A stretch of 64,000 nt of DNA. Source: Oscillospiraceae bacterium (GTDB taxonomy: Bacteria; Bacillota; Clostridia; Oscillospirales; Oscillospiraceae). Positions 10,882-40,857 of the stretch are shown piece after piece. The notes under the pieces are model-generated. The model did no database searches. It saw only the letters and a list, made by a program, of their open reading frames with translations, and had not been told where the DNA came from. The stretch is taken from assembly GCA_017540645.1 (NCBI GenBank), contig JAFYAQ010000004.1:1-64000 (forward strand), in the 5' to 3' direction. The position numbers were made by a program, and so were the translations under genes. How positions within the stretch are numbered: position 1 is the first letter of the stretch; the number at the start of each line of letters is the position of its first letter.

Positions 10882-13605
10882 ATGGCAAACAAAAAGTCCG
10901 CTCCGCGGACAAAAGCGAAGACAAACGCCGGCCGGCCGGCCCCCGCTTCCAAACCCATCCCTCGGGAGGTCTGGGCGGCGGGATGTGTCGTTCTGGGTCT
11001 TTTCACCGTCCTCGGGTATTTTGTGAAGGACTACTGGCTGATCGACGCGCTGTGCCTGTATGTGTTCAAGGGCCTGTTCGGCTGGGGTTTCCTGCTGACG
11101 CCGGTGTGCTTTTTCATCGCGGCCTGGATCCTCTTCACCGATCCGACCCGGTCGGTCCGGGGACGCCTGATCGCCGCGGCGCTGATCCCCCTGTTTTTCG
11201 GCGCGGTGGTGCATCTGCTGCTGGCCCAGGAGAGCTACGGTCTGGACTGGCTCTCTGTCCGCAGTCTGTATCTGGGGGGCCGGAACATGGAGTCCGGCGG
11301 CGTGCTCTCCGGCGCGCTGGCCGACATTCTGAGGAAAGCGGTCAGCATCTACGGCGCCGCCCCGGCGCTGTTCATCGGCCTTTTTGCCATGGTCTTCATC
11401 GCCTTCCGGGTCTCCCCCCGCAAGATCGTCTCGGACGTGAAAAACCGGGAGCGCCCGGTGCGAGACCCCATCCCGGAGGCCATGCCTGCGCCGGTCCAGC
11501 CTGCCCCTGTCCGCTCCCGCCGCCGGGATAACGCCGCGCTGGAGACGGAGATCTATGAGGAGATCCCGGGCATCGCCTCGGCCAGAACGACCCGACGGGC
11601 CCCGGTGAAAGACACCGCCGCGCCCCGCCGAAAGCGCCCCATCGATATCCCCATGGACAAAGAGCTGGAGGACGACGGCGCCTCCATCGAGGAGACCGCC
11701 ATCCCGGACATGCCCTCCGGCATCCTGTACCGTCCCGACAGGGCGCAACCCATCGCCTCTCCCCGGCAGAAGGCCCGGGAGGCCCGCCGCCTTCAGGACG
11801 CCCCGCCGCCCATCGAGGAGGACCCTTTCATCATCGACGAGACCCGCAAAGCCGGGAATATCCCCGGCCGTCCGGCATCGCCGAAGACCGAGCCGGAGCC
11901 GGAAATCGAGGAGATCGCCATCGAGCCCCTGCCCGAGCCGGAGCCGGCGCCCGAAGCCGCCACGCCCGCCGCCGCGTCTGCCCGGCAGGGATCCAACAGC
12001 GAGGAGGTCCGGGCCGCTGCGGACGAGATCTCCCGCGCCATCGAGGAGGCGGGAGCGGCCCCGGCCTATCGCTATCCGCCGGTGACTCTGCTGCGGGAGG
12101 GCACGGGCATGGCTCCCGGCGGTCAGGAGGAGATCGCCCTGAACCGGGACCGGATCGAGACCACCCTCCACAGCTTCGGCATCGGCGCCTCCGTGTGCGA
12201 GATCACCCACGGCCCCACCGTGACCCGCTACGATCTGGAGCTGGAGGCCGGTGTCAAGCTGAACAAGATCACCAATCTGGCCGGCGACCTGGCTCTGGCC
12301 CTGGGCGTGGCCAACGTGCGCATCGCCCCCATCCCGGACAAGATCTCCACCGTAGGCGTGGAGGTCCCCAACAAGATCGTCAGCATGGTCTATCTCCGGG
12401 ACATCATCGACTCGCCCGCCTTTGAAAAGGCCAGCTCCAAGCTGAGCTTTGCCATCGGCAAGGACATCGCCGGCAACTGCATCGTGGGCAATATCTCCAA
12501 GCTGCCCCACATGCTCATCGCCGGCACCACCGGCAGCGGCAAATCCGTGTGCATGAACAGTCTGATCATCAGCCTGCTGTACAAGGCCACCCCCGAGGAA
12601 GTGCGGCTGATCATGATCGACCCCAAGATGGTGGAGCTGGGCATTTATAACGGCATCCCCCATCTCTACATCCCGGTGGTCACCGATCCCAAGAAAGCCG
12701 CCGGCTCCCTCCAGTGGGCTGTGGTGGAGATGATGAAGCGCTACCGCCTGTTTTCCGAGGCGGGCGTCCGGGACATCCAGGGCTATAACAAGTATCTCAT
12801 CAAAAACCAGCAGCCGGTGCTGCCCAATGTGGTGATCGTGATCGACGAGCTGGCGGATCTGATGATGACCGCCGCCAAGGAAGTGGAGGAGAGCATCTGC
12901 CGTGTGGCCCAGATGGGCCGCGCCGCGGGCATGCACCTGGTGATCGCCACCCAGCGGCCCTCCGCAGACGTGATCACGGGCCTGATGAAGGCCAACATCC
13001 CCAGCCGCATCGCCTTCACCGTCTCCAGCGCGCTGGAGTCCCGGATCATCCTGGACACCCAGGGCGCGGAAAAGCTGATCGGCCACGGCGATATGCTCTA
13101 TGCGCCTCTGGGCATCGGAAAGCCCCTGCGGGTGCAGGGCGCCTTCGTCACCGACGAGGAGCGGGAAGAGGTCATCAATTTTATCAAGCAGGAATCGGAG
13201 CCGGATTACAGCCCGGAGATCATGAACGCCATCGAGCAGGCCGCCTCCAAGGACAAGGACAAGGAGGAGAGCGAGGGCTCCGGCGATATCTCCGGCGAGG
13301 GGGGAGAGAACCCCTTCAGCGAGTTTGACGAGCTGCTGCCCCAGGCGGTGGACGTGATCCTGGACACCAAGCAGGCCAGCGTATCCATGCTCCAGCGACG
13401 GCTGAAGCTGGGCTACTCCCGGGCCGCCCGTCTGGTGGACCAGATGGAAGAGCTGGGCGTGGTGGGACCCTTTGAGGGCTCCAAGCCCCGGCAGCTGCTG
13501 ATCACCCGGGAGCAGTGGCAGGAAATGAGCATGACCGGCAATTCCCCGGTGGAGCGGCTGATCAACGAGCAGAAGGACGACTTCTCCGGAGGGACGGGCC
13601 TGTGA
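10882..13605 (+). CDS. FtsK/SpoIIIE family DNA translocase
   Basis: This 907-residue septal motor pumps DNA during division or into the forespore. Order of parts: a basic N-terminus; about four to five transmembrane segments (about 35-185); a long charged and Pro-rich linker (about 190-390); an alpha/beta motor with Walker A GTTGSGKS (548-555) and Walker B VIVIDELADLM; and a C-terminal winged-helix gamma domain (about 825-890) that reads polarity sequences. Only one copy is visible, so whether it acts as SpoIIIE, SftA or FtsK is not decided. A ribosome-binding GGGAGAG precedes ATG 10882. The next gene starts at its stop codon (GTGA overlap). Confidence 0.95.
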   Translation: MANKKSAPRTKAKTNAGRPAPASKPIPREVWAAGCVVLGLFTVLGYFVKDYWLIDALCLYVFKGLFGWGFLLTPVCFFIAAWILFTDPTRSVRGRLIAAALIPLFFGAVVHLLLAQESYGLDWLSVRSLYLGGRNMESGGVLSGALADILRKAVSIYGAAPALFIGLFAMVFIAFRVSPRKIVSDVKNRERPVRDPIPEAMPAPVQPAPVRSRRRDNAALETEIYEEIPGIASARTTRRAPVKDTAAPRRKRPIDIPMDKELEDDGASIEETAIPDMPSGILYRPDRAQPIASPRQKAREARRLQDAPPPIEEDPFIIDETRKAGNIPGRPASPKTEPEPEIEEIAIEPLPEPEPAPEAATPAAASARQGSNSEEVRAAADEISRAIEEAGAAPAYRYPPVTLLREGTGMAPGGQEEIALNRDRIETTLHSFGIGASVCEITHGPTVTRYDLELEAGVKLNKITNLAGDLALALGVANVRIAPIPDKISTVGVEVPNKIVSMVYLRDIIDSPAFEKASSKLSFAIGKDIAGNCIVGNISKLPHMLIAGTTGSGKSVCMNSLIISLLYKATPEEVRLIMIDPKMVELGIYNGIPHLYIPVVTDPKKAAGSLQWAVVEMMKRYRLFSEAGVRDIQGYNKYLIKNQQPVLPNVVIVIDELADLMMTAAKEVEESICRVAQMGRAAGMHLVIATQRPSADVITGLMKANIPSRIAFTVSSALESRIILDTQGAEKLIGHGDMLYAPLGIGKPLRVQGAFVTDEEREEVINFIKQESEPDYSPEIMNAIEQAASKDKDKEESEGSGDISGEGGENPFSEFDELLPQAVDVILDTKQASVSMLQRRLKLGYSRAARLVDQMEELGVVGPFEGSKPRQLLITREQWQEMSMTGNSPVERLINEQKDDFSGGTGL

Positions 13606-37194: not shown

Positions 37195-37212
37195 TCCTGT
37201 ATTTGATCAAAG

Positions 37213-37246
37213 AAAAAAGACTTGCCTTCGGCAGGTCTTTTTTCTT
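37213..37246 (+). terminator. Terminator of the cmk-ispH/rpsA operon
   Basis: The stem AAAAGACTTGCC/GGCAGGTCTTTT with a TTC loop is flanked by A and T runs, 18 bp after the stop. Confidence 0.9.
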
Positions 37247-37249
37247 CTC

Positions 37250-37278
37250 TTGCGAAAAGCCATCGGGGATCGTATAAT
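37250..37278 (+). promoter_or_regulatory. Promoter of ispD
   Basis: TTGCGA (37250-37255) and TATAAT (37273-37278) are separated by 17 bp, directly after the terminator and 31 bp before the start codon. Confidence 0.8.
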
Positions 37279-37309: not shown

Positions 37310-38032
37310 ATGACAAAGCTGGCGGACGGACTCCGAAAATGGAAAAACACCCGGTGCAGCGTGGTGGTGGTGGCCGGCGGATCCTCCCGGCGCATGGGAG
37401 AGGACAAGTTGATGATGGATCTGGGCGGTATGCCCGTGCTGGCCCGTACGCTCACGGCGCTCAACGCCTGTTCGTGCGTGGAGGAGATCGTCCTGGTGGC
37501 CCGGGAGGATGCGCTGGAGCCCTTTGCCCGTCTCTGCAAGGATTATGGGATCGGCAAGGTGACGAAGGTGGTGGTGGGAGGACCCACGCGCAACGCCTCC
37601 GCCCTGGCGGGCCTGACCCAGATCAAGCGGGATGCAAAGCTGGTCCTGATCCACGACGGCGCCCGGCCCCTTGTGACGGAAAAGGTGGTGCAGGACGTGA
37701 TGCACGCCGCGGCCATTTATAAGTGCGCCGCGCCGGCGGTCCCGGTGAACGACACCGTAAAGGAGACCCAGGGGGACGCGGTGGTCCGCACCCTGGAGCG
37801 GTCCCGCCTCGCCGCGGTGCAGACCCCCCAGGCCTTTGTGCCGGAGATCATCAAGGCGGCGCTGACCAAGGCCGTGAAGGAAAAGAGAGAATTCACCGAC
37901 GACTGCGCGGCGGTGGAGGCCATGGGCATCCCGGTCCGCCTCTCGGAGGGAGACGGGGAGAACATCAAGATCACCCGCCCCATGGACCTGGTGACGGCGC
38001 AGGCCATTTTGCAAAGGAGGGCCGGGGCATGA
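37310..38032 (+). CDS. ispD: 2-C-methyl-D-erythritol 4-phosphate cytidylyltransferase
   Basis: This 240-residue enzyme of the MEP isoprenoid pathway joins CTP and MEP. The nucleotide-binding start is [17 protein letters not shown] (about 18-34), followed by [11 protein letters not shown] and [11 protein letters not shown], typical for IspD. The family usually reads GxGxRM; here SSRRMG replaces it. ATG 37310 has GGGGAGA upstream. It overlaps ispF by 4 bp; with ispH upstream this gives three MEP-pathway genes in 3.5 kb. Confidence 0.94.
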
Positions 38033-38505
38033 TCCGCATCGGTCAGGGCTATGACGTCCACCGGCTGGTGGAGGGCCGAGCTCTCATTCTCGGGGGCGTG
38101 GAGATCCCCTGGGAAAAGGGCCTGCTGGGCCACTCGGACGCGGATGTGCTGCTCCACGCGGTGATGGACGCCCTCCTGGGCGCCGCGGCGCTGGGGGATA
38201 TCGGCAAGCTCTTCCCGGATACGGACGAGCGCTATGCCGGGGCGGACAGCCGCCTCCTCCTTTCGGAGGTCTGCGCTCTTTTGCGAAAAAACGGCTGGGA
38301 GATCGGCAATGTGGACGCCACCATCGTGGCCCAGCGGCCGAAGCTCGCCCCCTATATCCCTGCCATGCGCCAGCGCATGGCGGAGAGCATGGGCGTGGAT
38401 CCCGGCCAGGTCAGCGTGAAGGCCACCACCGAGGAACACCTGGGCTTTACGGGCCGGGGGGAGGGCATCTCCGCCATGGCGGCGGCCCTGCTGGAAAAGA
38501 CGTAA
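38029..38505 (+). CDS. ispF: 2-C-methyl-D-erythritol 2,4-cyclodiphosphate synthase
   Basis: This 158-residue trimeric zinc enzyme follows IspE in the MEP pathway. Metal ligands D9 and H11 (GYDVHRL), the [21 protein letters not shown] segment and the C-terminal [15 protein letters not shown] are all intact. AAAGGAGG precedes the start, and ATG 38029 overlaps the ispD stop. Confidence 0.96.
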
Positions 38506-38515
38506 ACGCAGCTTC

Positions 38516-38560
38516 TCCCTCCGCATAGAATGGAGCGAAAAATCATTCTATGCGGAGGGA
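38516..38560 (+). promoter_or_regulatory. Perfect 17-bp hairpin covering the DUF3343 ribosome-binding site
   Basis: Bases 38516-38532 pair without mismatch with 38544-38560 around an 11-nt loop. The 3' arm contains GGAGGGA, the only ribosome-binding site of the gene starting at 38566. TTTTC follows, so it also has the form of an intrinsic terminator after ispF. It may be an attenuator or a switch on translation of the DUF3343-desulfurase pair. Confidence 0.7.
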
Positions 38561-38565
38561 TTTTC

Positions 38566-38817
38566 ATGTCTGCGCTGATATTGTTTCGCACTCTGCTCTA
38601 TGCCCAGCGGGCCCAGCGCTTCCTTGCCCAAAACGGGATCCCCGGCACGGTGGTGAAAGCGCCCCGGTCCGTAGAGGACCGGGGCTGCACCTACGCGGTC
38701 CGCCTTGCCGATCGGCGCAGGGTCCGGGCGCTGGAGCTGATGGAACGCCAGAGGATCGACCACGGCCGTGTGTTTGTCCTCCGGCCGGACGACACTCTGG
38801 TGGAGGTGGGCCCGTGA
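38566..38817 (+). CDS. DUF3343 protein, putative Se/S carrier
   Basis: This 83-residue protein starts SALILFRTLLYAQRAQRFLAQNGIPGTVVKAP and ends FVLRPDDTLVEVGP, like the DUF3343 family, which has been proposed to carry sulfur or selenium. One cysteine (GCTYAV, about residue 44) lies at the expected site. It overlaps the cysteine desulfurase gene by 4 bp (GTGA), which suggests that the two act as donor and acceptor. That is inference from context. ATG 38566 is preceded by GGAGGG within a perfect hairpin. Confidence 0.8.
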   Translation: MSALILFRTLLYAQRAQRFLAQNGIPGTVVKAPRSVEDRGCTYAVRLADRRRVRALELMERQRIDHGRVFVLRPDDTLVEVGP

Positions 38818-39932
38818 TCTATCTGGACAGCGCGGCCACCTCGCTTTTAAAGCCGCCATCCGTTGCCTCGGCGGTCTATCGTGCCATACAAAGCTGCGCC
38901 ACACCGGGCCGGGGGACCCACGCGGCGGCCATGCGCGCCTCGGACGTGGCGCTGAGCTGCCGGGAGGAGGCCGCGGCCCTTTTTCACATGAGGGAGCCGG
39001 AGAAAGTGGTATTCACCATGAACGCCACCCATGGGCTGAACATTGCCATTCGCTCTCTGGTCCCGCCCGGCGGGAGAGTGCTGATCTCCGGCTGGGAGCA
39101 TAACGCCGTCCTCCGCCCGCTCTACGCCCTTGGCGCGGAGATCGAGGTGGCGGCCTCGCCGCTCTTCGATCCGGAGGCGGCCCTTCGGGCGTTTCGGGAA
39201 AAACTGGGAGGCCAGTGCGCCGTGATCTGCAGCCATGTCTCCAATGTGTTCGGCTTCATCCTGCCGGTGGAGGAGATCGCCGCTCTCTGCCGGGAACGGG
39301 GTGTCCCCATGATCATCGACGCCTCCCAGAGCGCGGGAGTGCTGGACCTGGACTTTCCCGCCACCGGCGCCGCTTTCTGCGCCATGCCGGGACACAAGGG
39401 CCTGCTGGGTCCCCAGGGCACCGGCCTGCTGCTGTGCGCCGGGAGCGCGGAACCTCTGCTGACGGGCGGCACCGGTGGCCGCAGCGAGAGCCATACCATG
39501 CCCGAGGAACTGCCGGACCGGCTGGAGGCCGGCACCCAGAACATCTGCGGTGCGGCGGGCCTTCTGGCGGGGCTCCGGGCTGTGCGGGCCATGGGACCGG
39601 AGGGGGTCCGCCGTCGGGAGCAGCCGCTCTTTGCCTTTCTGCGCCGCGGCCTGCAGTCGCTCCCCGGCCTGCGGGTGTTCGCGGCAGAAACGGTCGGCGT
39701 GCAGACCGCCGTTCTCTCCGTCGTGTCGGAAGCCATGAGCTGCGAGACCATGGCCGACGCCCTGGGGCGGGCGGGTATCGCCGTCCGGGCGGGACTGCAC
39801 TGCGCCCCTCTGGCCCACACCACCGCCGGGACCCTCGCCACCGGCACACTGCGCCTGAGCCTCTCACCCTATAACACACGCCGGGAGATGGAGCGCTGTG
39901 TGGCGGCGCTGGAGAAAATTTTAAAAAATTAG
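38814..39932 (+). CDS. Cysteine desulfurase family PLP enzyme
   Basis: This 372-residue class V aminotransferase-fold enzyme removes sulfur (or selenium) from cysteine (selenocysteine) onto its own cysteine. Motifs: YLDSAATS (3-10), NATHGLN, the SHVSNVFG and DASQSAG segments, the PLP lysine K195 (GHKGLLGPQG), and the catalytic cysteine C330 in AGLHCAP. The start is GTG 38814, overlapping the DUF3343 stop. No iscU or sufU is near, so the acceptor is probably the small neighbour rather than an iron-sulfur scaffold. Confidence 0.88.
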   Translation: MIYLDSAATSLLKPPSVASAVYRAIQSCATPGRGTHAAAMRASDVALSCREEAAALFHMREPEKVVFTMNATHGLNIAIRSLVPPGGRVLISGWEHNAVLRPLYALGAEIEVAASPLFDPEAALRAFREKLGGQCAVICSHVSNVFGFILPVEEIAALCRERGVPMIIDASQSAGVLDLDFPATGAAFCAMPGHKGLLGPQGTGLLLCAGSAEPLLTGGTGGRSESHTMPEELPDRLEAGTQNICGAAGLLAGLRAVRAMGPEGVRRREQPLFAFLRRGLQSLPGLRVFAAETVGVQTAVLSVVSEAMSCETMADALGRAGIAVRAGLHCAPLAHTTAGTLATGTLRLSLSPYNTRREMERCVAALEKILKN

Positions 39933-40017: not shown

Positions 40018-40857
40018 ATGCATAACTTCTTTTCTTCCATCCCCGGCTTCTTTTCCAGTATCCGGTATCTGCGCCCCATGGATGTCGTCGACATCCTGAT
40101 CGTGGGAGTACTGATCTTCCTGGTGATCCGGCTGATCCGCAAGGCGAACAGCGGCAAGGTGTTCGAGGGGGTGTTGATCCTCCTGCTGGTCCTGTGGCTC
40201 TCCAGCGCCCTGCAGCTGTATACTCTGAACTTTATCCTGCGGAGCGTGGTACAGGTAGGCTTTCTCTCCCTGGTCATCGTATTCCAGCCGGAGATCCGCC
40301 GCGCCCTGGAAAAGCTGGCCTCCGGAACCTCTCTGAGCAAGCTGCTGGGCTTCGGCCGGCAGTACACCGGAGAATCCGCCATTACCCAGACGGTGATGGC
40401 CTGCATGGATATGTCCGACACCCACACCGGCGCGCTGATCATCTTTGAGCGGGACAACAAGCTGGATGAGCAGGTCCGCACCGGCACCGTGGTGAACGCG
40501 GATATCTCGGCGGAGTTGTTAAAGAACATCTTTTTTGTCAAGGCCCCTCTCCATGACGGCGCTGTGATCATCCGCAACGGGCGCATCCTGGCGGGAGGGT
40601 GCATGCTGCCCATGTCCAAAAACACCAATCTCAGCAAGGACCTGGGCATGCGGCACCGGGCCGGCATCGGCATGAGCGAAGCGTCGGACGCCCTGGTGGT
40701 GATCGTCTCGGAGGAGACCGGCGCCATCTCGGTGGCGGAAAACGGCGTCCTCAAGCGGCATCTGGATGCCGAGACGCTGGAGCTGCTCCTGCGCAGCGGG
40801 CTGATGAAGGACGAGGAACAAAAAAGCGCGGGATTCCGGTTTTTCCGGGGAGAGTGA
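40018..40857 (+). CDS. cdaA: Diadenylate cyclase CdaA
   Basis: This 279-residue membrane enzyme makes the second messenger c-di-AMP from two ATP. Three transmembrane helices (about 20-90) are followed by the DAC domain with D180GA182 and R212HR214 in the active site. C-di-AMP controls potassium and osmolyte uptake and cell-wall balance in Bacillota. It is followed by cdaR after 8 bp, the usual partner. It has its own promoter. Confidence 0.96.
   Translation: MHNFFSSIPGFFSSIRYLRPMDVVDILIVGVLIFLVIRLIRKANSGKVFEGVLILLLVLWLSSALQLYTLNFILRSVVQVGFLSLVIVFQPEIRRALEKLASGTSLSKLLGFGRQYTGESAITQTVMACMDMSDTHTGALIIFERDNKLDEQVRTGTVVNADISAELLKNIFFVKAPLHDGAVIIRNGRILAGGCMLPMSKNTNLSKDLGMRHRAGIGMSEASDALVVIVSEETGAISVAENGVLKRHLDAETLELLLRSGLMKDEEQKSAGFRFFRGE

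Follow-up and report, generated by a model that had tools for sequence, protein, structure and literature searches.

A sigma-K-type promoter motif nested in a hairpin that pairs with the Shine-Dalgarno sequence of a DUF3343 gene: a candidate barrier to read-through translation in Oscillospiraceae

The window analyzed here, 64,000 nucleotides of an Oscillospiraceae genome (contig JAFYAQ010000004.1), contains the gene order ispH-rpsA, terminator, sigma-A-like promoter, ispD, ispF, hairpin, DUF3343 gene, desulfurase-like gene, sigma-A-like promoter and cdaA, Table 1. Between 37278 and 39954 a promoter scan of the + strand listed nothing resembling a sigma-70 site. The DUF3343 product had been assigned in a preliminary description to a putative Se/S carrier family, and the profile match bears this out; the gene that follows scores 333.1 bits against TIGR01977, below the cut-off of 377. 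The DUF3343 reading frame has a further in-frame ATG at 38530, within the 5' arm of the hairpin and with no Shine-Dalgarno (SD) sequence before it, and relatives favor 38566 as the start.

Table 1. Features of the ispF-DUF3343 region and of sigma-K-like sites elsewhere in the same genome
Feature	Position	Strand	Remark
rpsA terminator arms	37210-37246		from inverted-pair listing
sigma-A-like promoter of ispD-ispF operon, TTGCGA-17-TATAAT	37250-37278	+	past rpsA terminator
ispD	37310-38032	+	PF01128 197.5 bits; TIGR00453 209.2 bits, cut-off 181.3
ispF, presumed read-through source	38029-38505	+	TIGR00151 225.8 bits, cut-off 116.45
AC, putative -35 element	38506-38507	+	16 bp upstream of -10; abuts ispF stop codon
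hairpin 5' arm TCCCTCCGCATAGAATG	38516-38532	+	carries anti-SD and -10 element
CATAGAATG, putative sigma-K -10 element	38524-38532	+	inside 5' arm
predicted start of sigma-K transcript, ~38538	38536-38540	+	hairpin loop; assumed from -10 distance
hairpin 3' arm CATTCTATGCGGAGGGA	38544-38560	+	contains SD
Shine-Dalgarno GGAGG	38554-38558	+	in 3' arm; sequestered in read-through RNA (computed)
TTTT behind stem, weak U-tract	38561-38564	+	C comes next
DUF3343 / Se_S_carrier gene, 83 aa	38566-38817	+	PF11823 50.5 bits, gathering score 25
cysteine-desulfurase-like gene, GTG start	38814-39932	+	overlaps DUF3343 stop; PF00266 222.3 bits
sigma-A-like promoter before cdaA	39954-39982	+	
cdaA, diadenylate cyclase	40018-40857	+	TIGR00159 225.6 bits, cut-off 188.8
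murA paralog, window's own genome	L347:13001-14305 (G000:C6)		sigma-K-type promoter nested in SD-blocking hairpin
DpaA C-terminal part (model ~127-289) joined to DpaB in one ORF	L344:15377-16626 (G000:C5)		behind sigma-K-like promoter
sigma-K-like site before FeoA-domain gene	L342:8599-8881 (G000:C4)	-	PF04023 53.4 bits

The two arms of the hairpin, which begins 10 nt past the ispF stop codon, are 100% complementary, with 17 Watson-Crick pairs of 17 and a loop of 11 nt. A search of the 64 kb lists 20 inverted pairs with arms of at least 13 nt and a spacing of at most 40 nt, the sole other perfect one measuring 15 nt, and RNA folding of positions 38500-38590 gives -36.3 kcal/mol against a mean of -19.9 for shuffled sequences (z = -5.5, none of 200 shuffles being as stable), so that the perfect 17-bp hairpin reported earlier is real. 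Its 3' arm does contain the only good ribosome-binding site of the DUF3343 gene, and the way in which stem and start signals of that gene overlap, to which the preliminary description had drawn attention, appears meaningful; the T-run said to follow the stem is present but short.

Within the 5' arm lies CATAGAATG, which together with the AC 16 bp upstream forms a putative sigma-K promoter, AC-N16-CATAGAATG. An independent promoter downstream of the stem had been named as the finding that would count against a regulatory hairpin; a putative promoter is indeed there, but inside the 5' arm and not downstream, and this position changes the meaning of the hairpin, since promoter and hairpin would together separate sporulation transcripts from read-through. 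The sigma-K promoters of Bacillus subtilis and Clostridioides difficile described in the available part of PMC3789822 have AC at -35 and a CATA-type -10 and serve mother-cell genes, for example dpaAB, and the motif found here is like them in both elements.

Upstream regions of the DUF3343 gene were taken from 111 loci, 30 and 21 from two sets of relatives and 60 chosen by hand, the latter mostly from the top of a list, with some places, several of them near contig ends, skipped without their upstream sequence being viewed. Within 120 nt upstream of the start, CATANNNT[AG] occurs at 102 of the 111 loci, against a mean of 4.2 and a maximum of 10 in dinucleotide shuffles and 0-2 loci for four scrambled motifs. 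It is found on the reverse strand in 20 of the 111 regions as well, above expectation, probably in part because of the palindromic stems. When the 102 loci are aligned on CATA, AC is located at a spacing of 17 in 48 and of 16 in 20, a sum of 68; the remaining spacings hold 15 (at 12) or between 1 and 8 (at nine others). More than one motif is present at only 2 loci, and picking the one nearest the start still gives 68 with AC. The base after CATANNNT is mostly G (81/102), unlike the B. subtilis sigma-K consensus, which has A there. A second set, drawn from named assemblies and reduced from 80 loci to 53 distinct ones by removal of 27 that duplicated earlier loci or one another, carries the motif in 50 and AC at 16-17 in 24, AC at -35 thus being rarer than in the first set.

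For comparison we used 19 of 30 dpaA loci and, from 208 genomes with SpoIVA, 10 loci of spoIVA, a sigma-E gene. The pattern AC-N16/17-CATA is present within 150 nt upstream of 70/111 DUF3343 genes, 8/19 dpaA genes and 0/10 spoIVA genes. According to the available part of PMC3789822, dpaA is controlled by sigma-K, and sigma-K and sigma-E promoters differ in having AC or ATA, respectively, at -35. By this computed comparison the DUF3343 pair is preceded by a conserved motif whose -35 element appears sigma-K-like rather than sigma-E-like. That the promoter belongs to sigma-E instead, which would leave the nested logic unchanged, we consider improbable; a CATA -10 is common to both sigmas in the same part of PMC3789822, and AC is missing from its expected place in about a third of the loci, but ATA occupies the -35 place in none of the 102 motif-aligned loci, and the loose pattern ATA-N15-18-CATA, again within 150 nt, matches 3/111 DUF3343 loci as against 7/10 for spoIVA (3/19 for dpaA). 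The genome has a sigK-like gene, which at 273.7 bits falls below the TIGR02846 cut-off of 298.65, a value that none of 14 control genomes, B. subtilis included, reached in a six-frame search, and a sigE-like gene with 346.1 bits, below the strict cut-off. Because AC-N16-CATANNATG is not enriched over seven genomes of the genus (35 matches, versus 31 for a reversed control pattern), the motif tells something only when it stands where a promoter would.

A sigma-K polymerase would start about 14 nt past the C of CATA, in the loop, and the promoter RNA would then be without the 5' arm, so that the hairpin could not form and the SD would be far cheaper to open. Computed for the window, the cost of opening the SD is 21.9 kcal/mol in the read-through RNA, 6.7 in the promoter RNA and on average 6.2 with shuffled upstream sequence (z = 8.4); in the model the promoter RNA retains some pairing between the SD and the beginning of the coding sequence, the mean unpaired probability of the SD being 0.17.

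We called a locus nested when the opening cost was at least 10 and z exceeded 2. With the 9 first-set loci lacking the motif left out of the scoring, 32 of 102 are nested, as are 14 of the 51 loci scored among the 53 of the second set; L052 is nested by these thresholds though its -10 lies 102 nt away. A z above 2 is obtained at 36 of the 62 loci whose -10 is at most 50 nt from the start (near loci) and at 10 of the 40 in which it lies farther off. At 53 of the 102 loci there is no nested hairpin and no separate terminator was detected, so insulation is not universal, and since most loci are non-nested, nesting is one of several arrangements. In the window's genus the stem is conserved, all 7 of the 7 loci with a DUF3343 gene having a nested SD hairpin. 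The 5' partner strand takes in part of the -10 in 30 of the 32 nested loci and predicted pairing covers 4-5 of the 5 SD bases in all 32, SD cost having itself been part of the selection.

The stems of the 32 nested loci differ widely, with 4-5 standard pair types per scored position outside the SD core, positions that are not strictly homologous because five different SD words served as anchors. Of the covariation sought for the stem, what can be recognized is that pairing is kept across these loci while the stems vary; within the genus covariation is weak by eye, the arms doubling as promoter and SD. In an arm swap the own 3' arm was best in 14/31 cases versus 2/31, a result that is partly circular because the nested class is defined by folding energy. 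A criterion based on unpaired probabilities (RT<0.2 and PT>0.5) selects 7 of the 62 near loci and is less clear than the opening cost, and a straddling-duplex test gives z below -2.5 at 31 of 102 loci. A mirrored -10 hairpin pattern has matches in 21 of 60 genomes, that in the present genome being only the hairpin described here. Mapped onto an ispF tree, itself weak, the nested state shows at least 17 changes.

Other layouts were noted by eye. At L017, L083, L084, L092, L106 and L112 hairpins with a T-run straddle the -10 and the SD is separate, further downstream, and at L010, L011, L036, L039, L044, L050, L072, L097 and L101 a long leader has hairpins downstream of the -10. At L257 (G052), at most about 70 nt upstream of dpaA, a sigma-K-type -10 is located in a T-run terminator hairpin that excludes the SD.

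A murA paralog with the nested design was met first in G003, in a pattern search of the seven genus genomes, and one is present in the window's own genome, where the AC (13001-13002) shares bases with the stop codon of the preceding murG-like gene, which we take to be murG. In the leader CTTTCCTCCGC pairs with GCGGAGGAAAG, ACAATG comes next and there is no T-run; the SD-opening cost is 13.0 in the read-through RNA and 1.7 in the promoter transcript. The protein is identified as MurA by TIGR01072 (443.3 bits, cut-off 392.7). Among the 30 best-scoring loci of murA paralogs the motif is present in 29, AC at 16-17 in 27 and an ATA match in 1, and of the 28 that were scored for hairpins 17 have z>2, including 7 with a cost of at least 10 (hand count). 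G004 and G016, which are without strong sigE/sigK matches, have one murA match each, but so do seven other genomes of 60, including G053 with its strong sigE match (G059 has none), and joint loss of sigma factor and murA paralog is therefore weak evidence.

Before ORFs in 462 kb of the genome, a small sample that included the already known places (window, murA and dpaA match), AC-N16/17-CATANNNT[AG] gives 4 sites and two control patterns give 3 and 2, so that the full promoter pattern is hardly commoner than the controls. The 4 sites precede the DUF3343 gene, murA, the dpaA-dpaB gene and the FeoA-domain gene; z exceeds 2 in 3 of them and in no control, the FeoA-domain gene having no SD hairpin (z = -0.5).

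A rival reading is that of a plain intrinsic terminator of ispD-ispF that overlaps the next start signals, masking of the SD being a by-product of compactness. With intrinsic terminators overlapping the next promoter the hairpin shares a GC-rich stem, of 17 bp, a T tail and compact spacing, and in the first set nested loci are rich in T behind the stem and have no separate terminator. In associations uncorrected for ancestry (an independent-pair test had 2 usable pairs), a search from ispF, or over 200 nt, to the promoter found such a terminator in 0/32 nested and 17/70 other first-set loci (p = 0.001), or 0/31 and 14/31 of near loci (p = 1.8e-5). The 9 nt before the start hold 5.3 Ts in nested against 3.1 in other near loci (p = 1.4e-7). 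The second set, which is smaller and was scanned over a fixed 200 nt, did not reproduce the difference in terminators (1/14 nested versus 4/37 others, p = 1; near loci 1/13 versus 4/18, p = 0.37). Against a plain terminator, a U-tract of only TTTT and a loop of 11 nt are weak features, and the hairpin is absent from the output of a simple terminator scan limited to loops of 3-8. Unlike such terminators, moreover, the hairpin takes in the SD of the next gene, as the pairing at all 32 nested loci does, in part by selection on SD cost, and its sister case before murA blocks the SD with no T-run at all, which argues that such a hairpin can serve solely to block the SD. We think it unlikely, if worth keeping in mind, that the hairpin is just a terminator. 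Still less can be said for a palindromic operator of some regulator or a leftover mobile repeat, a notion that we can hardly credit; the inverted repeat is long and perfect, but pairing persists across genera with differing stem sequences, and the arm sequence occurs just once in the 2.34 Mb genome (14 nt tried, at most 1 mismatch), for which reason an origin as repeat or mobile element was rejected.

The preliminary description had instead proposed an attenuator or translation switch through which the gene pair answers sulfur or selenium. PF11823 proteins have been proposed as Se/S carriers (PMC5322559, available part), and by analogy with that family one might guess that sulfur is passed from the desulfurase to the carrier; the masking of the ribosome-binding site by the stem also fits a switch. 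C41 of the DUF3343 protein is conserved in all 17 proteins aligned (2 of 19 were left out), and among the relatives listed the Cys of CRSLTYAQR seen in most is replaced by F or M in the seven genus proteins. No solved structure matching the DUF3343 profile was found. The metabolite-responsive part of the proposal is unsupported, however, and was rejected: at the hairpin region no match to an Rfam family attains the gathering score, the 10 nt between ispF stop codon and stem are too few to accommodate an aptamer or antiterminator outside the ispF coding sequence, the promoter motif is sigma-K-like, and selD was not found in this genome (best match 22.3 bits, cut-off 125). In 60 relatives selD exceeds the cut-off in 13, and in 11 of the 39 among them that have DUF3343 (hand count). 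A sulfur or selenium switch is, in our estimate, very improbable.

The distribution of DUF3343 was compared with that of sporulation genes. Of 80 relatives 51 have the gene, as do 200 of 250 genomes of the family and 7 of 9 genomes searched in the genus, the two exceptions being G004 (78% complete; weak sigE/sigK model matches) and G007 (75% complete; strong ones). Over the 250 genomes, many of them drafts, DUF3343 and SpoIVA occur together in 185, DUF3343 alone in 15, SpoIVA alone in 23 and neither in 27, a tally uncorrected for ancestry. The literature searched yielded no link of DUF3343, or of the DUF3343-desulfurase pair, to sporulation; spores go unmentioned in the available part of the main text of PMC5322559, and the available parts of PMC3533761 and PMC3738446 hold nothing relevant under desulfurase and related words.

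The explanation that we favor, and consider probable, is fold-back silencing of read-through with a nested sigma-K promoter. The DUF3343-desulfurase pair would form a sporulation operon of the mother cell that immediately follows ispD-ispF, an operon of vegetative growth. Read-through RNA from ispF would have both arms and fold, hiding the SD and leaving DUF3343 unmade in growing cells, while the TTTT tail may add termination of this RNA; we infer that transcripts begun by sigma-K polymerase would escape the block. An arrangement of this kind is described for the phage T4 genes e and I-TevI in the available part of PMC3014915, where long early transcripts hide the ribosome-binding site in a structure, and late promoters sit in the DNA of its 5' strand, giving late transcripts that lack this strand and are translated. 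As with gene e, the SD here is paired in the long transcript and the promoter is in the DNA of the 5' strand, in our case as computed. Phage late promoters and the timing of lysis are, by contrast, replaced by a cellular sporulation-type promoter and a boundary between housekeeping and sporulation genes. In the fold-back inhibition of IS10 an inverted repeat hides the transposase ribosome-binding site only in transcripts from outside; that device differs in protecting a mobile element and in using no alternative sigma factor. Nesting in an SD-blocking hairpin is not mentioned for sigma-K promoters in the available part of PMC3789822, and a literature search found no matching description of overlapping or nested sporulation promoters.

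More tentatively, and in our judgment with slightly less than an even chance of being right, the spacer and -10 of sigma-K promoters in Oscillospiraceae may double as anti-SD in a general form of insulation by which mother-cell genes yield protein only from the short transcripts of their own sporulation promoters, the DUF3343-desulfurase pair behind ispF and the murA paralog behind murG being the examples. The design is compact and open to simple reporters. Silencing of read-through by fold-back, if true, would explain how spore genes can lie within a few bases of housekeeping operons and yet be silent in growth, and would extend a trick of phage T4 to bacterial development. The finding also singles out an uncharacterised protein resembling Se/S carriers, together with its desulfurase, as a likely product of sigma-K sporulation genes in a family of gut bacteria that are largely uncultured.
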